A stretch of DNA of 64,000 nucleotides from Methanomassiliicoccus sp. (GTDB lineage: Archaea; Thermoplasmatota; Thermoplasmata; Methanomassiliicoccales; Methanomassiliicoccaceae), in contig JAWQJJ010000003.1 in NCBI GenBank assembly GCA_033485155.1, forward strand, positions 186,001 to 250,000, read 5' to 3'. This document shows, in pieces, positions 5,726 to 48,295 of the stretch. The notes beneath the pieces are model-generated. The model was not told the DNA's origin and searched no databases. It saw only the letters and a program-made list of their open reading frames with translations. Position 1 is the stretch's first letter. Every line of letters starts with the position of its first letter. The position numbers were made by a program, and so were the translations under genes.

Positions 5726-5821
5726 ATGAGCATGCGTCAGATTCTGTTGATCGTCGACGCCTTCCTGATCTTTGCAATCTTCGTTAGCCTATACTACCTA
5801 GTGGAGAACCTGCTGATCTAA
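5726..5821 (+). CDS. Candidate 31-residue single-helix membrane protein
   Basis: A short frame, ATG to TAA, encodes a short polar start (MSMRQ) and then about 24 hydrophobic residues (ILLIVDAFLIFAIFVSLYYL) with the end VENLLI. A TATA-like AATTATAATAA lies at about 5690-5701, some 30 bases before the ATG, so it could have its own short-leader transcript. It may be a real small membrane protein next to the usp gene, but short hydrophobic frames also arise by chance. No family is recognised. Confidence 0.4.
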   Translation: MSMRQILLIVDAFLIFAIFVSLYYLVENLLI

Positions 5822-6117
5822 AATGGATGACTCCAGCAGGATCGATCTCTTACTCGAAATGACATTTTTAAGGTTAAATGAGCTCGAAAGAGGGAAGATA
5901 CTAAACACGGCAGATCTCTCTAGTACAAATATGTGCATCGTCTGCTGGCAAATGTAAAGATAATGGATGAGAACGCTTTTTGATATTTTCTATACATTAT
6001 ATTAAATTCAATAAAGACTGACCCTCATGGCAGTGGCCGACCGGTGGATATCATTCTCCGTTTCGAGCAGCCTTGATTTCTATTTTTTATTCTCTATATC
6101 AAGAATGATTATGGTAT
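5822..6117. other. AT-rich spacer upstream of the archaellum operon
   Basis: No protein-coding frame of note. The segment is AT-rich with several T-runs, consistent with transcript ends and upstream promoter sequence for the archaellin gene. Confidence 0.5.
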
Positions 6118-6140
6118 TAGTTGATTTATATATTTTAGGT
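6118..6140 (+). promoter_or_regulatory. Probable archaellin promoter (TATA box)
   Basis: TTTATATATTTTA at about 6125-6137 is the best TATA box ahead of flaB. Transcription would start near 6160, leaving a leader of about 90 bases that ends in GGAGG six bases before the flaB ATG. The long leader with a strong ribosome site fits high expression of the filament protein. Confidence 0.5.
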
Positions 6141-6248
6141 CCAGTTTTTAATCACTTAAGATGGCTGAAGGGGAGACTGATCCTCTCATCATCTAAGTGA
6201 GAGCTTGGGCCGAGGTCCTCGGTCTGAGGCAATCAATGGAGGAATAGA

Positions 6249-6881
6249 ATGGTAATGAGCAAGAAATTTGCAAGGATGTCTAGGGACAAGCGCGCCGAGA
6301 TGGGCGTTGGTACGATGATCATCTTCATCGCCATGGTCCTCGTGGCCGCTGTCGCCGCGTCCGTCCTGATTAGCACCGCCAACACGGTGCGCGAGCAAGC
6401 GACTCAGACTGGAAACGACGCCATTAACAACGTTGCTTCTGGCTTCGACATCAAGTACGTGAAGGGAACTGTAGCCAGCAACGCCATCACCTCGATGGAT
6501 GTCTATGTCCAGCTGTCCGCTGGCAGCCCGGCCATCCGGATGGATACTGTCACCCTCTCGGTGACTGCTGGAACCTCTAGCGGCGAGCTGACCTTCGACA
6601 AGACCGATGGTGCTGACAAGTCCGCTGACGCCGGCACTCCGGCCACCTATGGTGCGATCCTGGTGCCTCCGGCTGCCGCTGGCACCCCCTTTGCGTCCTA
6701 TAGCACCGTCCAGCAGGGCGACCTGGTGAAGATCACCATTAACGCTATCGGAACTGCAGACCTGGGCATCACCCCCGGCACCTCCGTGACCATCAAGATC
6801 ATGCCGGCCAAGGGGTCTTCGACCACTGTGTCGTTCACCGTCCCGCCCGTTCTGAGCAACGGCGTTGTGAACCTGAGGTAA
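6249..6881 (+). CDS. flaB: Archaellin (archaellum filament protein)
   Basis: 210 residues. It begins with a class III signal peptide: charged MSKKFARMSRDKRAEMG, then the conserved hydrophobic VGTMIIFIAMVLVAAVAASVLI. Prepilin peptidase (FlaK/PibD, not in this window) would cut next to the KRA/EMG junction. The hydrophobic helix packs in the filament core, and the rest is a Ser/Thr/Gly-rich beta domain exposed outside. The start at 6249 has GGAGG six bases upstream; an ATG at 6255 is also possible. It is first in the operon and the only archaellin in the window. Codon choice is strongly biased to C- and G-ending codons, as expected for an abundant protein. Confidence 0.93.
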   Translation: MVMSKKFARMSRDKRAEMGVGTMIIFIAMVLVAAVAASVLISTANTVREQATQTGNDAINNVASGFDIKYVKGTVASNAITSMDVYVQLSAGSPAIRMDTVTLSVTAGTSSGELTFDKTDGADKSADAGTPATYGAILVPPAAAGTPFASYSTVQQGDLVKITINAIGTADLGITPGTSVTIKIMPAKGSSTTVSFTVPPVLSNGVVNLR

Positions 6882-6917
6882 ACGCGTTAGTGTAAACTAG
6901 AAGGAGGGAAACGACGA

Positions 6918-7919
6918 ATGAGCAAGTATCGCACGACCCTCCTTGCCTCTTTTTTTTCCTCGATGGCAGTCCTATCGTTCAAGAAGAAGGGCAAGGACGA
7001 AAATCTTGGGAGCGCGTCGTCATCGCTGGGCAACATGAGCCTCAACCATGGGGACACCATGTCGCTGGGCGATCTCGGCGGAGGACTGGGAACTCTGAGC
7101 AAGCTGAGCGACATTGGCCAGCCAGGTGGATCGCTGGGCGATCCGATGGGCGACGCCATGCCGAAGTTGGGAGGCGACAACAAGAAACTCCAGGAAGTGG
7201 AAGCGAACGTCAACGACCTGAAGAGCCACATGGAGTCGACCGATCTCACCACCAAGGCGATGAAAGGCGAGATGGAGTCCATAAAGAGCGACCTGGGACA
7301 GATCAACGACTCCATCAGAACGCTCCTCAACGTTTATGAGGCCGTATCCAAGCAATACAATCCGTTCGTTGATGACGTTCCGGCGGCGCCGGCAGCGAAG
7401 GTTACCAGCGAACCGAAGATCGAGGCCACGATGACCATTGCCGGCAGCCCGAAGACCGAGCCCACACCGGTGAAGGCCGAGAGCCTTGTGGAGAGCCTAT
7501 CGGACATTCCGTTCGATGCCGATGGCCCTCTGGACCGTATCGTCAAGCCGGACGAGGAAGAAGTGCTCGCGATTAATAAGGCGGAGGAACCAGCCATATG
7601 CCATTCCCTGACCGACATGCAGGTCAATGAGAAGCTAGCGATAGAAAAGGAGGAGGAACCGGCTATGGTGAAAAGCTTGGAACCGACCATCGACACTACC
7701 TTCAACGAACCCAAGCCCGCGTCGATCAGTACCCCGGTGCCCGTGACGAAGCCATTGTCTCATGAGGACGTGTACGCGCTCGAACAGATCCGCAGGCTGG
7801 TCGACTGCCTGATGGGCAAGATATGCACGGAACGGTCCGTGGGCAATGAGATAAAGGAGGCGGACATCAGGGCCTTGGACCTCTGGCTAGGAGAGTTCAA
7901 GCGATTAGGGGGCATCTAA
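6918..7919 (+). CDS. flaD: Archaellum accessory protein, FlaC/FlaD/FlaE type
   Basis: 333 residues. A variable, Gly/Ser-rich N-terminus is followed by a coiled coil (about residues 85-130) and the conserved FlaC-type block LLNVYEAVSKQYNPFVD. A long acidic, Pro/Ala-rich linker follows, then the FlaD/E C-terminal domain (EQIRRLVDCLMGKI, ending LDLWLGEFKRLGG). FlaC/D/E proteins form the cytoplasmic ring around the motor and receive the switch signal from CheY through CheF. Here the parts are fused in one chain, as in several euryarchaea. AGGAGGG supports the ATG at 6918; an ATG at 6963 starts MAVLSFKKKGK, which looks more like other FlaC starts. Confidence 0.88.
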   Translation: MSKYRTTLLASFFSSMAVLSFKKKGKDENLGSASSSLGNMSLNHGDTMSLGDLGGGLGTLSKLSDIGQPGGSLGDPMGDAMPKLGGDNKKLQEVEANVNDLKSHMESTDLTTKAMKGEMESIKSDLGQINDSIRTLLNVYEAVSKQYNPFVDDVPAAPAAKVTSEPKIEATMTIAGSPKTEPTPVKAESLVESLSDIPFDADGPLDRIVKPDEEEVLAINKAEEPAICHSLTDMQVNEKLAIEKEEEPAMVKSLEPTIDTTFNEPKPASISTPVPVTKPLSHEDVYALEQIRRLVDCLMGKICTERSVGNEIKEADIRALDLWLGEFKRLGGI

Positions 7920-8335
7920 TGGGGATGAGCGTGTCCATCGCCACTGCCATCATCTTCATCGCCTCGTTGATATCGTTCGCGTCGTTAGCAGGCGCCCTGG
8001 ACCAGGCCCAGAGCTCCCTGATAGAAGCACAGAAGGCCAGTGCCTCGCGGGATGTGGAGGCGCTCCATACGAGCATCTCCCTGACCGAGATCGACAGGCC
8101 GAACGGTACCATCGAGGTCGTCAACAGTGGCGAGGTCACGCTCTCATTGGATGAGCTAGACATATTCATCAACGGGACGCTGAGCAACGAGCGCATAACA
8201 TCGATGACCGTGCAGGGACACAACGATACCAAGCTCTGGCTATCGGGAGAGGTCCTGGTCATCGACCTTAACGGAGAGCTGAGCGGTGCAGCTATCAAGA
8301 TCGTCACCGCAAACGGGACCTCAGTCTATGATTAG
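7919..8335 (+). CDS. flaF: Archaellum stator-type protein FlaF
   Basis: 138 residues: one N-terminal membrane helix (about 4-26) and a beta-rich domain that would face the pseudoperiplasm (motif VVNSGEVTLSLDELDIFING). FlaF of other archaea binds the S-layer and, with FlaG, anchors the motor. The ATG overlaps the stop of the previous gene by one base, showing translational coupling. It ends in TAG. Confidence 0.87.
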   Translation: MGMSVSIATAIIFIASLISFASLAGALDQAQSSLIEAQKASASRDVEALHTSISLTEIDRPNGTIEVVNSGEVTLSLDELDIFINGTLSNERITSMTVQGHNDTKLWLSGEVLVIDLNGELSGAAIKIVTANGTSVYD

Positions 8336-8343
8336 GGGAGAAC

Positions 8344-8784
8344 ATGGCATCGGACGACTCAATTACCCAGATGGTCTTCTTCATAGCGTCGATCATCGTT
8401 GCCGTTTCCATAGCCGGGACGATAATAGGGGTAACTGGGTTGATGAGCGACGAGGTACGCACGAAGGCCAATGGTGCGGTGACGGAAATGGGCTCATCGA
8501 TCGCCTTCGTGAACGACCCTCGGCATGTCCCCTATGAAGAGGGCAACCTAACGCTGTACATCAAGAACACTGGAGACATAGTCCAGAGCTACAGGGATCT
8601 GATCATATTCGTTGATGGGCAGTACGTCGAGTACGAAGTCAAGATCGTAGGATCGGACAGTGAGAACTGGGTCACCGGTGGGATGGTCGAGGTCACTGTC
8701 GCGATAGTGCTGGAAGCGGGAGATCACACGGCAAAAGCCATTGTGGGCAGCGGAGTCTCAGACACCTTGGACTTTAGGCTTTGA
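8344..8784 (+). CDS. flaG: Archaellum stator-type protein FlaG
   Basis: 146 residues with an N-terminal membrane helix (TQMVFFIASIIVAVSIAGTI) and a beta-sandwich outer domain (LTLYIKNTGDI, LIIFVDGQYV). FlaG forms filaments capped by FlaF and anchors the archaellum motor in the envelope. GGGGAG precedes the ATG. It lies eight bases after flaF and has the same layout, as usual for this pair. Confidence 0.87.
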   Translation: MASDDSITQMVFFIASIIVAVSIAGTIIGVTGLMSDEVRTKANGAVTEMGSSIAFVNDPRHVPYEEGNLTLYIKNTGDIVQSYRDLIIFVDGQYVEYEVKIVGSDSENWVTGGMVEVTVAIVLEAGDHTAKAIVGSGVSDTLDFRL

Positions 8785-8824
8785 TCGGACAAGCCTATGG
8801 AATAGAGGTAGGAGGTGAGCATTG

Positions 8825-9547
8825 ATGAGTGACGGCTCCGGGAATAGCGGGGGAACGCGCCATGACCTGTTCGGTATTAATTTAAAGCAGGACGAGCTCG
8901 CAGCTCGGATGGGCGGCGGTCTCCCCCGCGGTTCCACCATGCTCATCGAGGGCGCGGAAGGGTCCGGCCGGAGCGCCCTCTGCCAGCGCATTCTCTACGG
9001 CCTGTTGCAGAACGGCCATACCGCGACCTTCGTGTCCACCGAGCTGACGCTGAGGGATTTCATCGACCAGATGTATTCCCTCGACTACAAGGTCGACAAG
9101 AACCTCCTCAACGGCAGCCTCAGCTATTTCCCGGTCTATCCCCTGCTGGGCCAACAGCGGTCCCGGGGTGACTTCCTGGAGAAGCTGATGGCCTCGCCCC
9201 AGCTGTACAGCAAGGATGTTCTGTTCATCGACTCTCTGACCACGCTAACGAAGGATAGTCTGAACGAGGCCAACTGCATTCGCCTGATGGGCTTCCTCAA
9301 GAAGCAGATGAAACTGGAGAAGACCATCATTATGACCGCGGACGAGGCCTGCAAGGCCGCAGACCCCCTCCGCCAGGCAGTGGACATCTACCTCAGCATC
9401 AAGATGAAGGCGTCCGGATCGGAGGTAACCCGGACGGTGCAGACCCTGCGCTATCAACGCGCAAAGCGCAAGGTCGATGACACGATGAAGATCAGGATAG
9501 AGCCGGGCATCGGGCTGGTCATCGAGATCACCGAGGTGTCCGGTTAA
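8825..9547 (+). CDS. flaH: Archaellum motor RecA-like ATP-binding protein FlaH
   Basis: 240 residues, a single KaiC/RecA-like domain. The Walker A loop reads GAEGSGRS (residues 43-50), with Arg in place of the usual Lys. Walker B is DVLFIDSLT. FlaH binds ATP and sits under FlaI in the cytoplasmic motor, where nucleotide state is thought to control its assembly. GGAGGTGA six bases upstream favours the ATG at 8825 over the TTG at 8822. The stop overlaps the flaI start (TAATG). Confidence 0.9.
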   Translation: MSDGSGNSGGTRHDLFGINLKQDELAARMGGGLPRGSTMLIEGAEGSGRSALCQRILYGLLQNGHTATFVSTELTLRDFIDQMYSLDYKVDKNLLNGSLSYFPVYPLLGQQRSRGDFLEKLMASPQLYSKDVLFIDSLTTLTKDSLNEANCIRLMGFLKKQMKLEKTIIMTADEACKAADPLRQAVDIYLSIKMKASGSEVTRTVQTLRYQRAKRKVDDTMKIRIEPGIGLVIEITEVSG

Positions 9548-11190
9548 TGGTCAACATCCCTCCGGACCTCGAGAAGGAGATGGCCCATGATCCCAACATC
9601 CGGGAGTACATAGAGGAACTCCTCAAGACCACCACGATACTGCCGAAGTACTTCAACAACCTCTCGGTCAAGGACCTCGCGGACATTAGAAAGAACGCCG
9701 TGTTGGACCCCACCAGCGCCAACCTGATCTACAAGATCAGCGGAGGGTACATCCACATCGATGCCCTGCACTCGAAGTACATATCGGTCGAAGCCAAGCT
9801 GGACCTCGAGCAGAAGGAGAAGCTGCGCAAGATCAAGGAGCTAATCCTGGAGAAGGCCAGCGCCGAGGAGTCGGTGGAAACAAAAGAGGATCTGGTTCGT
9901 ATACTGGAGAAGCTCTTCGACCTATCGGTAGAGGTCAGCGACAGCGGGCTCAAGAGGAAGAAGAAGAGCGGCAAGGTGGTCCTCAATCAGCGGGAGCACG
10001 ACCTCCTAAAGTACTATATCAACCGGGACATCGTGGGGTACGGTCCGATCGAGCCGCTGATCATGGATCCGTACATCGAAGATATTCACCTCATCGGAAC
10101 GTCCAGAGTGAGGGTGTCTCATAAGGCCTTCCAGTATGGGCTGGAGACCAACGTGCGGTTCGATGATGAAGTCACCCTCAACGACTTCTTCGTCTCCATG
10201 TCCGAGCGCATGGGGCGGCCGGTCAGCGCGTCCAAGCCCATCGTCGACGGCACCCTTCCAGACGGCTCGCGTATCAACATGATCTACTCGAACGATATCA
10301 GCGCCCGCGGCTCGTCGTTCACCATCCGTAAGTTCGCCGCCGAGCCCATCTCGCCGATCCAGCTGATCAAGTGGGGTACCTTCTCCCCGGAGTTCGTGGC
10401 CTACGTCTGGTTGTGCCTGGAGAACAAGATGAACATCATCCTGGCCGGTGAGACCGCGTCCGGGAAGACGACCGCGCTCAACGCCCTGCTGTGCTTCATC
10501 GACCACCGCGGCAAAATCTATTCGGTCGAGGATACCCCCGAGGTCAAGCCTCCTCAGAAGGGTTGGCAGAGGTGCGTCACCCGTGAGTCCGGACCGGAGG
10601 AGGCAAGGGTCACCATGTTCGACCTCCTGAGGGCGGCGCTGCGTTCCCGTCCGGATTACATCGTCATCGGTGAGATCAGAGGTGAGGAGGGTAGGGTCGC
10701 CTTCCAATGCATGCAGACCGGTATCCCGGTCATCGCCACCTTCCACGCCTCCAACGCCACCAAGTTCATTCAGCGTATGACCGGGCAACCGATCAGTATT
10801 CCCATGTCGTTCATCGACAATGTCAACGTCATCATCTTCCAATCGGCCGTGAACGTCAACCGCCGGTTCTTAAGGAGAGTTACTGGTGTGGAAGAGTTTA
10901 TAGGCTACAACAAAGAGGCGGGAGGCGTGCTCAGTAGGAACGTCTTCAAGTGGGATTCCGCCACTGATAACCTCTACTTCCGCGGTAACAACAACTCCTA
11001 CATCCTCGAGAAGAGGATTGCCCTAGAGCACGGTTACGCCGAGCCCAAGGATGTGTACAAGGACCTCCGCCAGAGGGAGAAGATCATCCGCAAGATGATC
11101 GAACTGGATATCACCGGATATCACGAGGTCAACAAGATCCTGAGCGACTACTACGAGAACGGACCGAGCTCCCTACCTTTCACGGTGTGA
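9547..11190 (+). CDS. flaI: Archaellum motor ATPase FlaI
   Basis: 547 residues, a type II/IV secretion superfamily ATPase. The N-terminal half holds the VGYGPIEPLIMDP block. The C-terminal half has Walker A GETASGKTT, an Asp box (IYSVEDTPE), Walker B (YIVIGEIRGEE) and the His box ATFHASN. FlaI is the hexameric ATPase that drives both filament assembly and rotation, working on FlaJ in the membrane. The frame overlaps flaH at its start and ends six bases before flaJ. Confidence 0.95.
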   Translation: MVNIPPDLEKEMAHDPNIREYIEELLKTTTILPKYFNNLSVKDLADIRKNAVLDPTSANLIYKISGGYIHIDALHSKYISVEAKLDLEQKEKLRKIKELILEKASAEESVETKEDLVRILEKLFDLSVEVSDSGLKRKKKSGKVVLNQREHDLLKYYINRDIVGYGPIEPLIMDPYIEDIHLIGTSRVRVSHKAFQYGLETNVRFDDEVTLNDFFVSMSERMGRPVSASKPIVDGTLPDGSRINMIYSNDISARGSSFTIRKFAAEPISPIQLIKWGTFSPEFVAYVWLCLENKMNIILAGETASGKTTALNALLCFIDHRGKIYSVEDTPEVKPPQKGWQRCVTRESGPEEARVTMFDLLRAALRSRPDYIVIGEIRGEEGRVAFQCMQTGIPVIATFHASNATKFIQRMTGQPISIPMSFIDNVNVIIFQSAVNVNRRFLRRVTGVEEFIGYNKEAGGVLSRNVFKWDSATDNLYFRGNNNSYILEKRIALEHGYAEPKDVYKDLRQREKIIRKMIELDITGYHEVNKILSDYYENGPSSLPFTV

Positions 11191-41407: not shown

Positions 41408-42607
41408 ATGGTATCGAAGAAAGGCGTGGTCGCGATCGTTCTGGTCGTGGCCGGCCTCCTTTTGGTCCTGGCCCTCGTGCCTAGGGGCATGCTGACGGGG
41501 GCATCGGCCATGAACGTCCCTACGACCAATGTACTCCTGCATGAGGATGCCGAGGAGTCGAACTACAGCATATGGGACGCCCGTTGGATCCGCAGCGACG
41601 CCAACCCGGCCTCTGGCGATGATCACTGGTGCCGAACCATGCATGACTACCATGACGGCAATCATTCGATCTATTGTGCTAGGATCGGTGCCAACAGCCA
41701 CTACATGATTCCCATTCGGATGGCAGATGGGAGCACGGGATATGTTCAGCCCTGGAATGTCAATGTCACCGGCCTTCCTGCCACTACCCCTCAAACGCAG
41801 TGGGTGATGAGATATGATACCGACCAGGATGCCCTCATGCGCAGAGCTGTCCCCAACGCGCAATATTACGCCAACCTCTCCCTGACTTTCTGGTTCTGGT
41901 CTCACACCGGCTCCTCCGACGCTAAGCAACCGGGCACCAACGCCTCGGTCGGCTACGACTTCCTCAACGCCGTTTACTACACCGGGAGCGGCAATAGCGT
42001 GACGAAGCACGTCCTGTGGACCGACAACTATCAGGAAGCAACGGCCCAGAGGTGGCTCCAGGTAAAGGTGTCCGTTCCCAACAACGCCACCATGGTGGGC
42101 TTCGAGTTCGTGTCCGGGACGAAGGCACCGCAGGGGGGCGATGCGACCAACGCGTTCGCTTCCAGCGGAGTGAGGATGCAGAAAGGCGGGATGCTTGAGG
42201 GGGCCTACCTCGATGGCATATACGTCAATGGATCGGACCCCTCTCCCAATCTGCCCCTGACCACGAGCGTGGAAGAGTTGCCGTCCTTCCTGAACAGCAC
42301 CGGGTTTCCGATCGATGTCGTCGCCGACCGGCCATCGGACCTGAGCCATGTGAGTCTGTACTACCGGACGAGCGGTGAGAGCGCCTGGACCAAGTACACG
42401 ACATCGTCCAACCGGGACGGTAAATTCTCTTCGACCCCCATCATGTTCATCGCCCCCAGCAACGGGACGTACGAGTTCATGACTCAGGGGGTGGACCTGA
42501 ATGGCGTGGCAGAACCGCTGCATAATAAGGCCGACGCGTGGACCACCGTCGGTCCACCAGTCCAGGAAACCTCCTCCAACACCGGCGGATCGTCCTCAAA
42601 TAAGTAG
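41408..42607 (+). CDS. Secreted or lipid-anchored hypothetical protein
   Basis: 399 residues. The signal segment is MVSKKGVVAIVLVVAGLLLV, ending near GASA. The mature part is rich in aromatic residues, Asn and Thr (many N-x-S/T sites). It looks like a beta-sandwich carbohydrate-binding or lectin-like domain (about 45-270), then a second beta domain (about 280-370) and a Ser/Asn tail. AACTATATGG at 41370-41379 is a TATA box about 33 bases before the ATG. No catalytic motif is seen. It is probably exposed at the cell surface. Confidence 0.72.
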   Translation: MVSKKGVVAIVLVVAGLLLVLALVPRGMLTGASAMNVPTTNVLLHEDAEESNYSIWDARWIRSDANPASGDDHWCRTMHDYHDGNHSIYCARIGANSHYMIPIRMADGSTGYVQPWNVNVTGLPATTPQTQWVMRYDTDQDALMRRAVPNAQYYANLSLTFWFWSHTGSSDAKQPGTNASVGYDFLNAVYYTGSGNSVTKHVLWTDNYQEATAQRWLQVKVSVPNNATMVGFEFVSGTKAPQGGDATNAFASSGVRMQKGGMLEGAYLDGIYVNGSDPSPNLPLTTSVEELPSFLNSTGFPIDVVADRPSDLSHVSLYYRTSGESAWTKYTTSSNRDGKFSSTPIMFIAPSNGTYEFMTQGVDLNGVAEPLHNKADAWTTVGPPVQETSSNTGGSSSNK

Positions 42608-43872: not shown

Positions 43873-45318
43873 TCACGGTACGAAGAGGAAGTTGCCGAAC
43901 TGCCACATGTCCTCGTGATGGTCGTTCGCCGGGTTCTCCTTGAAGTACACCTTCCGGTTTTTCAACGGTGTCCAGTCCGAAGGCGTGGAGATGAATTTAC
44001 CTAGGTAGGGCATGGCGATCTTCAGCACGTAATCGTGGGGCAGGTCTTCCGCCGAGCATAATCCCTTCCGGGGATTCTCAATCATCCACATGACCGCAGA
44101 CACCACACCCAAGGCGACCTGGACGGTGGTCGCGTTCTGTCCGGGTATGAGCTTCCTGGCCTGCTCTATGGTAAGAATGCTCCCGCACCACCAGGAGCCG
44201 TACTCGTGGCCCATTAGGAGGGCTCCGAGGATATCCGCCCCTGAGACTATCTCCTTCTCTAGGATTCGGAGCTTTGGTTGGATCTTGTAGTTCCTGCACC
44301 TCAGCTCGTGCAGTGACACCATGGTATCGTCGCACGGCATGTAAGAATAGCACACCGTGGGCCTGTAAATCGCCTTTCCATCCTTCCAAACGGTAAGCTT
44401 GTCGGACAGGCCGAAAGATTCCCCGTGCCTTATGGCCATTCCTACGATCTCACAATCGGGGACCCAGGACCTTACCCATGTGTTCATACCCATCTGTGCG
44501 AGCATGATTTGGTTCTTCGGTCCGAAATCGGGGCAGTATGCGAGAGGAGGCAGGGCCTTCTCATGCGTGCCCCAGCCGATCTCCGCCGGAGCAGTGCCCT
44601 CCTCCCTCAGGCCCTCGATGCTCCAGGTCCCCACGAACTCATCGACCTTCTTGGGATTATTGGTTATCTGGGTATCCCGCTCCGAACAGTGGATGACCTT
44701 GACGCCCAAAGTCCTCGAAAGCTCCGCAAAATTCCTTGATCGTACAAGCTCTTGCAGGAGCGCGGCCCTTTTCTCGGTCACCTTCTTGTCCTTAATAAGC
44801 CGCTCCGATATGTCGACCAACGCCTGCTTGACAAAATGGGAGATCAGGCCGGGATTGGCCCCGTGATCAACGACCGCCGTTACTCCGCCATCCCAGCCCT
44901 TCACCATCTCCCGCAGACGCATCTGCCGGGAATAGAGGGACTTCTCCACCGGGTCCTTCGACCCCACCTCGGACAGGGAGTCCCAGACCTCCACCGAGGT
45001 GTTCAGATACAGCACCTCATGGTCGTGGCACCACTGGATGATGGCGTTAGCGTCTATGTTCCAGGCCAGGTCGATGAGCAATCCCCCTGGGGACAGGTGT
45101 TCGGAGAGGACGGAATCGAGGTTCTCCGGCGTTATCCTCCGCTGCCGATACTTGATTCCCTTGCTGGTCCATCTTCTCAGGGCTGAGGACTTGTCCTCGA
45201 AGTCGATGATGGTGATATTTTCGTACGGGATTTGGATATGACGCAACAGGATGGGTAGCGTACATCGAGCTACAGAACCATAACCTATGATCAGAACCTT
45301 GCTGTCGAAGTTCATCAT
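43873..45318 (-). CDS. hss: Homospermidine synthase
   Basis: 481 residues, full family length. The NAD-binding strand VLIIGYGSVARCTLPILLRH opens the protein. Further family landmarks are VVDHGANPGLISHFVKQAL, HEYGSWWCGSIL, LIPGQNATTVQVALG and ENPRKGLCSAEDLPHDYVL. The enzyme joins putrescine units, or putrescine and spermidine, into sym-homospermidine with NAD+. It belongs to the saccharopine-dehydrogenase-like fold and is cytoplasmic. No other polyamine gene is adjacent. ATG codons at 45318 and 45315 are both possible starts. Confidence 0.9.
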   Translation of the reverse strand: MMNFDSKVLIIGYGSVARCTLPILLRHIQIPYENITIIDFEDKSSALRRWTSKGIKYRQRRITPENLDSVLSEHLSPGGLLIDLAWNIDANAIIQWCHDHEVLYLNTSVEVWDSLSEVGSKDPVEKSLYSRQMRLREMVKGWDGGVTAVVDHGANPGLISHFVKQALVDISERLIKDKKVTEKRAALLQELVRSRNFAELSRTLGVKVIHCSERDTQITNNPKKVDEFVGTWSIEGLREEGTAPAEIGWGTHEKALPPLAYCPDFGPKNQIMLAQMGMNTWVRSWVPDCEIVGMAIRHGESFGLSDKLTVWKDGKAIYRPTVCYSYMPCDDTMVSLHELRCRNYKIQPKLRILEKEIVSGADILGALLMGHEYGSWWCGSILTIEQARKLIPGQNATTVQVALGVVSAVMWMIENPRKGLCSAEDLPHDYVLKIAMPYLGKFISTPSDWTPLKNRKVYFKENPANDHHEDMWQFGNFLFVP

Positions 45319-46016: not shown

Positions 46017-46349
46017 TCAGTCCACAATGAACTCGACGTCGTTGGCCCTGTTCCTGCGGGCATTGGTGCGGGAGATCATTCCTGCCTCCATCCATCCTGC
46101 GCTTATCAGCCCAGCCGGAGCGAGGCAATTGGCGGACATGCGACAATTGCAGTAGCGGCTGATGATGCCGCTATTCGCCTTATCTGTCAGGTCGGTCAGG
46201 GAGATGCTTTCCAGACCTTCGGCGAACTCTTTGACGTTGACGCAGTCGGTTTCTATCCTGCAATTAAAGTTGCCATCCTCCGCCATATCTACCGTGATCA
46301 GGTGCGTCTTGCCGCATAGCCGCATGTTGACCTTGACCTTAGCTGTCAT
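46017..46349 (-). CDS. Cysteine-containing small protein divergent from the methyltransferase
   Basis: 110 residues. A beta-rich first half (KVKVNMRLCGKTHLITVDM, NFNCRIETDC) is followed by a block with RYCNCRMSANCLAPAG, a C-x-C-x5-C arrangement that may hold metal, then EAGMISRTNARRN. From memory, similar proteins occur near methyltransferase genes in methanogens, but I could not check this. It is divergent from, and about 180 bp from, the methyltransferase gene, so shared control is possible. Confidence 0.7.
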   Translation of the reverse strand: MTAKVKVNMRLCGKTHLITVDMAEDGNFNCRIETDCVNVKEFAEGLESISLTDLTDKANSGIISRYCNCRMSANCLAPAGLISAGWMEAGMISRTNARRNRANDVEFIVD

Positions 46350-46532
46350 CTACCCGCCTCTTCTTGCTTTACGCAAGACACGAAACAAAGGAGCCATAAG
46401 TGCTTTTACCCAACTTTCGCGGTAACCGTGTTCGGACGGCAGACGGGGCATCGTAGAATGAGGAGAAGGCCGGCCATCGGCCGAGTCCAATGATAATCTC
46501 CAGACCAATCGAGGGTGGTAAAAAACGGGACT

Positions 46533-47690
46533 ATGGTTAAAAGCATCGCCGACCTTTTCCTGCCGATGAGCGTCGACGCAGAGAACGTCCTACCACCACC
46601 GAACCAGAAGTGGCACATGCATGCCGAGAAGAGGTTTACCAGCCCTTTCACCGGTCAGAAGTTCGACCGCATAGATGTCGATGCCATGATGCTCTCCCAC
46701 GCGGCTGTCATCTCCGGGTACACCATCAACGACTTCTACACCAACCCCGAACTGGGAGCATGGTGCGTGGCCAATGCTTCGGAGATGTATGATCTCATAC
46801 CCATGACCCACTGGTACTTCTCCCTTCCCTGGGTCGCGGAGCTGGGGGCGGAGATCGAGTTCAAGCCCCTTCTGCCGCCCACGGTGAGAGAGCCGAACGT
46901 CAAGGACCTGGAGATGGTAGACAAGATCGAGGTTCCGGACGTGAAGGAGATGGAGAACAGCTGGACCGGTCAGCGGATGGTCCGCGTGCACGATTATGTG
47001 CTGAAGCACCTTCCCCAGAAGTTCATACCGATGACCTACACCTCCGATCTTACAGGAGGAGGGGCACAGCTTTGCGGCATCGAGAACTTCATCATGTGGA
47101 CGATGACCGAGCGGGACGCCGCCCACAAGCTCATATCCAAATATGCCGAGGTGGCGACAAATGGTGCCGAGATGATGGCCAACCGGTACGGGATGGCGCT
47201 CATCTCGACCGGCTCGGTCCTGGCGAACAACGACATCTTCTCTGATGCCGACATCGAGGACCTCTCGGCGAGATATCTCCACAAGTTCGTGGACAATTGC
47301 CTCAGGAAGGGGGCAGGACCACAGGTCCTCTACCATCTGTGCGGCAATCACGAGACCTCCTACAAGATGTTCAAGGACCGGCTGGTGTTCACACCCTTCA
47401 CCATAATGCACGCCGGTTACAAGGGAAGGGATGTGTTTCCGTCGGACCTGTTGATGAGGGAGTTCGGAGACGTGGCGACCATCATGGGATCGGTAGACAC
47501 CAAAATGATGATCCTCCCGAACCCGAAGCGGGTCTACGAGCAGGCCAAGGAACAGCTCATCAGAGGGCGGGATAGCCGTAACGGCTACATCCTGGGCACC
47601 GCGTGCGAACTGCCGCCCGATGCTCTGCCGGCCAACGTGTTCGCCCTTGTCCAGGCAGCCAGGGACTACGGCACCTACGGAACGTGGTGA
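46533..47690 (+). CDS. Corrinoid-type methyltransferase of the uroporphyrinogen decarboxylase family (MtaA/MtbA-like)
   Basis: 385 residues from the ATG at 46533; a GTG at 46515 is also in frame. The UroD-like TIM barrel carries the zinc motif of methylcobamide:thiol methyltransferases, H-x-C at His268/Cys270 (HLCGNHE) and a distant Cys358 (GTACELPP). MtaA and MtbA use this site to bind coenzyme M thiolate and take a methyl group from a corrinoid protein. Here no corrinoid protein or substrate methyltransferase is adjacent, so the methyl source and acceptor are open. It forms a two-gene operon with DUF2284 (five bases between stop and ATG). The N-terminal 45 residues (FLPMSVDAENVLPPPNQKWH) differ from standard MtaA. 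Confidence 0.82.
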   Translation: MVKSIADLFLPMSVDAENVLPPPNQKWHMHAEKRFTSPFTGQKFDRIDVDAMMLSHAAVISGYTINDFYTNPELGAWCVANASEMYDLIPMTHWYFSLPWVAELGAEIEFKPLLPPTVREPNVKDLEMVDKIEVPDVKEMENSWTGQRMVRVHDYVLKHLPQKFIPMTYTSDLTGGGAQLCGIENFIMWTMTERDAAHKLISKYAEVATNGAEMMANRYGMALISTGSVLANNDIFSDADIEDLSARYLHKFVDNCLRKGAGPQVLYHLCGNHETSYKMFKDRLVFTPFTIMHAGYKGRDVFPSDLLMREFGDVATIMGSVDTKMMILPNPKRVYEQAKEQLIRGRDSRNGYILGTACELPPDALPANVFALVQAARDYGTYGTW

Positions 47691-47695
47691 GAACG

Positions 47696-48295
47696 ATGGG
47701 CTCGGAAGCCGGACAGGCGATAGAGGGGGAGCTGGAGAGGATGGCGAGGGACAGCGGAGCGACGGCGTTCGTTCGACTGGATGCCTCCCAGGTGGTCACG
47801 GCCCATTGGGTCCGGCTGCGCTGCCAATATGGGTGCAAGTATTACGGAACGCGGCTGACCTGCCCCCCCTACAGCCCTACACCGGAAGACACGAGGAAGG
47901 TGCTGGACGAGTACAGGACGGCATACTTGATCCGTTACGAGGGATTCCTCGGCTTTGACACCTATCCGCCCCAGAACCTATATGGTGGGCTAAAGAAGAT
48001 GAGTGTGAAAGCATGCGACGCGGGGTTCGACATGGAGAGGCACGCTTTCCTGGCCGGCTACTACAAGGCTTACCTGTACGGTGCTCACCGATGCTACCGA
48101 TGCGATACCTGCGCCCTTGAGGAGGGTAAGACCAAGTGCCGGTTCCCGGTGAAGGCCAGGCCGTCGATGGAGTCGGCGGGCATCGATGTGTTCGCCACCG
48201 CCAAGAACGCAGGCATCGAGGCCCACGTGATCAAGGATAAGGCCGTATTGTCACCAGAGATGTTGCCGACCTTCATGCTTCTATTACTGGAGTGA
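47696..48295 (+). CDS. DUF2284 metal-binding protein
   Basis: 199 residues. LRCQYGCKYYG, then LTCPPYSPTPEDT, then HRCYRCDTCALEEGKTKCRFP give eight cysteines in the family's order. The first group looks suited to zinc, the second to an iron-sulphur cluster. DUF2284 proteins are often found beside corrinoid or methyltransferase genes. It starts five bases after the methyltransferase stop, so the two are probably made together and work together. The start at 47696 is taken because GGTGAG lies close upstream and longer versions overlap the previous gene. Confidence 0.85.
   Translation: MGSEAGQAIEGELERMARDSGATAFVRLDASQVVTAHWVRLRCQYGCKYYGTRLTCPPYSPTPEDTRKVLDEYRTAYLIRYEGFLGFDTYPPQNLYGGLKKMSVKACDAGFDMERHAFLAGYYKAYLYGAHRCYRCDTCALEEGKTKCRFPVKARPSMESAGIDVFATAKNAGIEAHVIKDKAVLSPEMLPTFMLLLLE

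Follow-up and report, generated by a model that had tools for sequence, protein, structure and literature searches.

A Putative Zinc Methyltransferase of the UroD Superfamily Outside the MtaA/MtbA Clade, and Its DUF2284 and DUF6951 Neighbors, in Methanomassiliicoccus sp.

The Locus and Its Genes

The stretch of DNA analyzed here (the window) comprises 64,000 nucleotides of a Methanomassiliicoccus sp. genome (assembly GCA_033485155.1, contig JAWQJJ010000003.1, forward-strand positions 186,001 to 250,000) and carries three neighboring genes, all of them real, which encode a UroD-superfamily protein (hereafter the window UroD), a DUF2284 protein, and a small DUF6951 protein divergent from the other two (Table 1). 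The window UroD was placed outside the MtaA/MtbA clade, in an archaeal family tied by gene order to a Trs cassette, and it is probably a zinc-dependent corrinoid methyltransferase acting on sulfur or selenium (S/Se).

The open reading frame (ORF) of the window UroD spans 46515-47690 on the plus strand, with candidate starts at GTG 46515, ATG 46533, and ATG 46566, of which 46533 or 46566 is favored. Its stop codon is separated by 5 nt from the DUF2284 start, just 5' of which lies GGTGAG. This spacing and the upstream GGTGAG agree with the co-transcription assumed in an earlier reading of this DNA (the original prediction), and judged from the sequence the two genes are likely to be co-transcribed. 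The region between DUF6951 and UroD is presumed to be a promoter region shared by both. In the host genome (G000, with the window on contig C3), 12 UroD-family genes, 12 corrinoid-protein (PF02607) loci, four DUF6951 genes, and two DUF2284 genes were found.

Table 1. Features of the locus, numbered from the first nucleotide of the window (aa, amino acids).
Feature	Position	Strand	Basis
Predicted UroD-superfamily zinc methyltransferase, Trs-linked archaeal family, 385 aa	46533..47690	+	PF01208, AlphaFold2 model, tree
H268-x-C270, two of three predicted zinc ligands	47334..47342	+	Codons 47334-47336 and 47340-47342; numbering from ATG 46533
C358, third predicted zinc ligand	47604..47606	+	Alignment invariance
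DUF2284 metal-binding protein, 199 aa	ATG 47696..stop 48295	+	PF10050; Cys 43, 47, 56, 107, 133, 136, 139, 148
DUF6951 small protein, 110 aa, divergent from UroD	46017..46349	-	PF22263; C12, C36, C75 invariant; predicted IscU-like fold
Divergent intergenic region, DUF6951/UroD	46350..46532	.	Read from sequence
Saccharopine-dehydrogenase-fold protein, conserved flank only	43873..45318	-	PF03435/PF16653; synteny with G002 and G003
Uncharacterized protein, syntenic flank only	41408..42607	+	Without Pfam match; 45% identical gene near DUF2284 in G002 and G003

Family, Zinc Site, and Phylogeny of the Window UroD

The window UroD matched PF01208 with 107 bits against a cutoff of 23.9. Among the NCBIfam models, with their curated cutoffs, those for coenzyme M (CoM) methyltransferases gave weak scores that all fell under cutoff (PRK06252, 58.6/244; the MtaA-CmuA model TIGR01463, 47.4/235.4; the MtaA model NF040654, 36.8/400), and no match to TIGR01464 (hemE) was obtained. 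Solely G105, H268, C270, and C358 were invariant across 83 aligned relatives, MtaA-type proteins included. The triad H268, C270, and C358 was kept in 73/73 rows of the half of the tree that contains the window UroD (the focal half), in the MtaA/MtbA rows, and in CmuA, and was absent from three HemE proteins; since these residues correspond to the His-Cys-Cys ligands of the superfamily, they are predicted to be zinc ligands. In the AlphaFold2 model (pLDDT 93.3, pTM 0.91) the top PDB match was Methanosarcina mazei MtaA (4ay7; E 1.6e-15, TM-score 0.84 on target), followed by HemE structures. The family match, the H268-x-C270...C358 site, and the MtaA fold match bear out the original description of an MtaA/MtbA-like protein with an H-x-C...C zinc site. 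Its N-terminus, described there as unlike that of MtaA, is indeed divergent and slightly longer, but it is the same region, in an alignment of model and MtaA over 358 columns.

Two trees, of 124 and 60 rows, were built with CmuA, HemE, MtaA, and MtbA rows included. The focal half, which comprises a large Methanomassiliicoccales clade (100/100) and five Methanolobus proteins, was separated from MtaA, MtbA, CmuA, and HemE with a Shimodaira-Hasegawa-like approximate likelihood ratio test (SH-aLRT) support of 98 in the 124-row tree and a bootstrap/SH-aLRT support of 99/97 in the 60-row tree. The MtaA/MtbA-type proteins formed their own clade (99/93) in the 60-row tree, without the window UroD, and the HemE rows formed another; the long branch of CmuA leaves its exact placement unsure. 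Placement inside the MtaA or MtbA clade, with ordinary partners elsewhere, had been named as one outcome that would speak against a separate enzyme. Both trees put the window UroD outside, a position that, like the zinc triad, is well supported by the sequences, and membership of that clade was rejected; its identity to MtaA-type sequences is 15-22%. HemE identity was also rejected, as the triad is missing in the HemE rows and these are separate in the tree. The family of the window UroD was seen in Methanomassiliicoccales and Methanolobus only. The clade holding it together with the host's own Trs-linked copy received 100/100 in the 60-row tree, and within it the window UroD belongs to a nine-member paralogue group (support 100); the order in which the paralogue groups branch from one another carries no firm support in that tree. 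At three other loci (L111, L112, and L113), sets of at least two UroD genes lie 3' of a corrinoid protein, and among them is a distinct, deeply branching lineage of the focal half in which the zinc triad is kept.

The Parent Trs Cassette and a Folate-Linked Group

The main members of the family share a conserved gene order consisting of UroD, a DUF7479 small protein, and a TrsS-type radical S-adenosylmethionine (SAM) protein. This order was found for one well-supported group (25 rows in the 124-row tree, eight in the 60-row tree) and for the Methanolobus proteins. The DUF7479 protein scored 34/60 bits as DVU_1557-like in Methanolobus and 57 bits with PF24292 in the host genome, and TrsS scored 474 and 535, respectively, against a cutoff of 490. 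A literature search on DVU_1557-type genes returned nothing relevant. Further along most cassettes lies a DVU_1553-type coenzyme A ligase (263/300 in Methanolobus); no such gene was observed at the host's own cassette locus, at G000:C1:558406 (L062, G000:C1:550500-567000, with UroD at 7898-9013 within L062). The window UroD and the L062 UroD are 53% identical, and the cassette partners DUF7479 and TrsS are absent beside the window UroD and throughout the nine-member group. The window UroD is a paralogue that left the Trs cassette.

A related group of eight members adjoins genes for methylene-tetrahydrofolate (H4F) reductase (MTHFR), its C-terminal partner, a methyl-H4F:corrinoid methyltransferase (PRK07535, 281 against a cutoff of 259), and the corrinoid activase RACo. 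This folate-linked UroD group possibly connects methyl transfer to the folate pool. UroD stands beside MTHFR, DUF5981, the methyl-H4F:corrinoid methyltransferase, and RACo at L092 (G021), L078 (G042), and L087 (G016). For one Methanomassiliicoccales member, mtrH alone has been reported of MTR, and no methyl branch of tetrahydromethanopterin (PMC7824343). A methyl source or acceptor different from the usual ones had been proposed for the window UroD, and this is plausible because its relatives adjoin either a TrsS-type radical SAM enzyme or genes of the folate methyl branch.

Linkage of UroD, DUF6951, and DUF2284 among Relatives

Comparison of nine close orthologues showed DUF6951 within 200 nt of UroD in four (the host genome, G001, G006, and G009). 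As this proximity occurs in three different arrangements, one chance event is disfavored. Across 15 genomes, DUF6951 was located within 5 kb of UroD for 10 of 53 genes, against about 2.5 expected under uniform placement, and within 300 nt for four, against 0.4 expected; these enrichment figures overstate independence, since the cases are partly orthologous. For DUF2284, the sole other UroD neighbors found were in G014, where another DUF2284 lies just 3' of a UroD of a different subfamily. In two congeners (G002 and G003), DUF6951 and DUF2284 are adjacent and divergent without UroD, and the saccharopine-dehydrogenase-like flank gene also stands beside that pair (82% and 81% identical). The three-gene unit as a whole is not conserved; it is a mosaic with partial linkage beyond the host genome.

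The Accessory Candidates DUF6951 and DUF2284

The DUF6951 protein matched PF22263 with 57.5 bits against a cutoff of 27. It contains the C67-x-C69-x5-C75 motif by which the original prediction described the small divergent protein; gene and motif are present, but the motif is not a conserved feature, as only C12, C36, and C75 are invariant across 74 relatives. Its structure model (pLDDT 96.8, pTM 0.90) gave IscU chains as leading PDB matches (probability 0.97, TM-scores of about 0.5), with a best E of 0.035 that is not significant by itself. Its elements follow one another as strand, Cys, two strands, Cys, helices, Cys, helices, a succession that matches IscU, and the model suggests that DUF6951 likely has an IscU-like fold. 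A search of solved structures by sequence with the DUF6951 profile gave nothing useful, as did the same search with the DUF2284 profile, and no paper was found in a literature search on DUF6951.

The neighbors of DUF6951 in two phyla include corrinoid methyltransferases, MtaB/MtaC (MtaB 717/720), a RamA-type activase (741/500), MtaA-type UroD, AtwA (768/517), and an AhpD-like protein; several other copies are without methyl-transfer neighbors. DUF6951 is the connecting piece of the locus and a better-supported partner of UroD than DUF2284. Elsewhere in the host genome, AtwA, a DUF4443/DUF2111 protein, DUF6951, an AhpD-like protein, and an unnamed 185-aa protein form a recurring set (L171, G000:C2:386000-400000, at 5818-10037). 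Up to four clustered DUF6951 genes were observed near AhpD-like genes in Methanolobus (L239, L240, and L249), with MtaC-like genes at L239 and L249, and hydantoinase/oxoprolinase-like proteins recur near UroD or DUF6951 (L064, 3512-5512; L059, 3908-5875; L252, 5279-7288).

The DUF2284 protein had been predicted to carry eight cysteines; the match to PF10050 (146.4 bits, cutoff 25) and a count of exactly eight Cys agree with this. Seven of them are invariant across 22 relatives, and the pattern C-x2-C-x2-C-x8-C resembles that of iron-sulfur (Fe-S) proteins. A link to selenium is possible: in bacteria, TrsS and certain DUF2284 proteins contain selenocysteine, but the proteins of the window have cysteine instead. 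A different DUF2284 type is found in G021, directly 5' of an ArsR-type regulator and at most 3 kb from an ArsA ATPase, and the window protein is about 40% identical to it. That locus (L177, 6439-10533) comprises DUF2284, the adjacent ArsR, and, nearby, a thioredoxin-like CC protein and the ArsA-type ATPase. In bacteria, DUF2284 is also fused to an arsenite methyltransferase (ArsM_DUF2284_UU, NF041536; PMC13188914). Indirect backing for the suggested redox- or metal-partner role of DUF2284 comes from the Fe-S-like invariant Cys, this fusion, and the UroD neighbor in G014; the lack of conservation beside UroD weakens it.

Proposed Function and Alternative Explanations

It has been argued that His-Cys-Cys zinc sites mark S/Se-methyltransferases, whereas O-methyltransferases replace Cys, and slow selenide methylation by one His-Cys-Cys protein has been shown (Kountz & Balskus, PMC10418091). 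By analogy with this class, the window UroD is most likely a corrinoid-dependent S/Se-methyltransferase. The reading that we favor, with moderate confidence, is that of a zinc-dependent corrinoid S/Se-methyltransferase that uses a B12 protein encoded elsewhere, with DUF2284 and DUF6951 as thiol/Fe-S accessory proteins. At the barrel mouth, zinc held by H268, C270, and C358 would bind and activate a thiol (or selenol), whose S or Se would exchange a methyl group with the cobalt of a corrinoid protein from another locus of the genome. The enzyme would have arisen by duplication of the Trs-cassette enzyme, which is still kept in the genome. A side route is probable, in which a methylated thiol or selenol is consumed or produced, or methyl groups enter or leave the one-carbon pool; bulk methanogenesis would be served by the MtaA-type enzymes in the genome. 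DUF2284, with seven invariant Cys, and the IscU-like DUF6951, with three, are hypothesized to fill the accessory roles.

Several observations weigh against this reading. The zinc triad on which the assignment draws indicates the class of enzyme, not its substrate. A credible B12-binding protein or substrate methyltransferase was absent among the window ORFs, and 0/12 of the PF02607 loci of the host genome are on contig C3, in line with the original remark that neither a corrinoid protein nor a substrate enzyme is adjacent. DUF6951 does not adjoin UroD in five of the nine close orthologues, focal-type DUF6951 is present without an adjoining focal UroD in G002, G003, and G005, and DUF2284 was found beside close UroD orthologues in the host genome only. 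The proposal of a three-gene unit is not supported in its original form, DUF2284 adjoining no other close orthologue and the DUF6951-DUF2284 pair occurring without UroD in two congeners; of the conserved linkage that was looked for, the DUF6951 part held in 4/9 orthologues and the DUF2284 part failed. A profile comparison of DUF6951 with 28 IscU sequences of the same order gave an hhalign probability of 0.1-0.3%, which is not significant, so homology to IscU is not claimed; in the non-significant alignment, C12 and C36 fall opposite the first and second cysteines of IscU.

One alternative explanation is that the neighbors are accidental, an orphan UroD paralogue having inserted into an unrelated divergent DUF6951/DUF2284 pair. 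The occurrence of that pair without UroD and with the same flank in G002 and G003, and a three-gene order unique to the host genome among the genomes seen, make this possible, but it is doubtful, as UroD-DUF6951 adjacency recurs in G001, G006, and G009 in differing orientations, for which insertion at a single site does not account, and DUF6951 is enriched near UroD genes. It is unlikely that the window UroD is a divergent MtaA/MtbA isoenzyme making methyl-CoM from an unrecognized methyl substrate. The host is a methanogen, the fold and zinc ligands are the same as in MtaA, and DUF6951 occurs elsewhere near MtaCB and MtaA-type genes; however, the protein lies outside the MtaA/MtbA clade and far under all CoM-methyltransferase cutoffs, four UroD proteins in the genome already exceed the PRK06252 cutoff, and the relatives adjoin TrsS, not methyl-substrate enzymes.

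Chemistry on metalloids was also considered, with the window UroD as a B12-dependent arsenic/selenium methyltransferase and DUF2284 as its metal-binding partner. The DUF2284-ArsM fusion and the ArsR- and ArsA-linked DUF2284 type of G021 point in this direction, as does the AhpD-like neighbor of DUF6951, which resembles ArsM-fused and arsenosugar-linked proteins; in addition, arsenic methylation by MtaA has been reported, either in vitro or as a side activity (PMC13262295, PMC9213503, PMC6205960). Nevertheless, no ars gene was present among the window neighbors examined, the likeness to the ArsR-linked type amounts to the identity given above, and DUF2284 is not conserved beside UroD, so that this explanation appears very unlikely. 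A bolder proposal, speculative and quite unlikely, would make DUF6951 a methanogen-specific, IscU-like three-Cys protein serving corrinoid methyltransferases and the activation of methyl-CoM reductase; it might, for example, supply RamA-type activases or the zinc enzymes with Fe-S, sulfur, or a different soft ligand. The window unit would then be one specialized outpost of it, in which a B12-dependent methyltransferase acting on a thiol other than CoM, a selenol, or a metalloid is paired with DUF2284. Finally, a uroporphyrinogen decarboxylase or other non-methyltransferase relative is suggested by the Pfam family name and by the HemE structures that are the next-best fold matches, but it is hardly credible given the lack of a hemE match in NCBIfam, the zinc triad that is invariant here and absent from HemE rows, and the separate HemE clade.

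Comparison with Known Systems

The window UroD, for which the corrinoid S/Se-methyltransferase reading is preferred, belongs to an established enzyme class, of which it forms a new branch, and its chemistry is not of a new kind. Many UroD-type methyltransferases in Methanomassiliicoccales are still unsorted, and MtaA and MtbA could not be told apart there (Borrel et al., PMC4153887). The analysis sets a distinct archaeal family apart from the CoM enzymes and connects it, through gene order, with TrsS-type radical SAM and folate one-carbon genes; it also suggests that DUF6951 may be an accessory factor in methylotrophic methanogenesis.

MtaA of M. mazei (PDB 4ay7/4ay8) is the closest structural counterpart, sharing the UroD fold and the His-Cys-Cys triad, whereas the window UroD has low identity to MtaA-type sequences, belongs to a separate clade, scores under the curated cutoffs, and has no corrinoid or substrate gene nearby. 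The Mlp proteins of type 1 mlp clusters (PMC10418091), compared by description only, are likewise UroD-superfamily relatives of CoM methyltransferases with His-Cys-Cys sites and are proposed to be S/Se-methyltransferases, but Mlp2, Mlp3, a corrinoid protein, and a Ram/RACE activase are not found beside the window UroD. The Trs-cassette UroD of L062 belongs to the same protein family of Methanomassiliicoccales and Methanolobus and differs in having DUF7479 and TrsS adjoining it; with respect to the Tes/TrsS radical SAM proteins, a TrsS-type enzyme adjoins the parent family and none occurs in the window. DUF6951 may resemble IscU/NifU_N scaffolds in its predicted fold, which carries three invariant Cys, but without significant sequence or profile similarity. 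The ArsM-DUF2284 fusion selenoproteins share the DUF2284 domain, whereas the window DUF2284 is free-standing, of the cysteine type, and located beside a B12-type and not a SAM-type methyltransferase.
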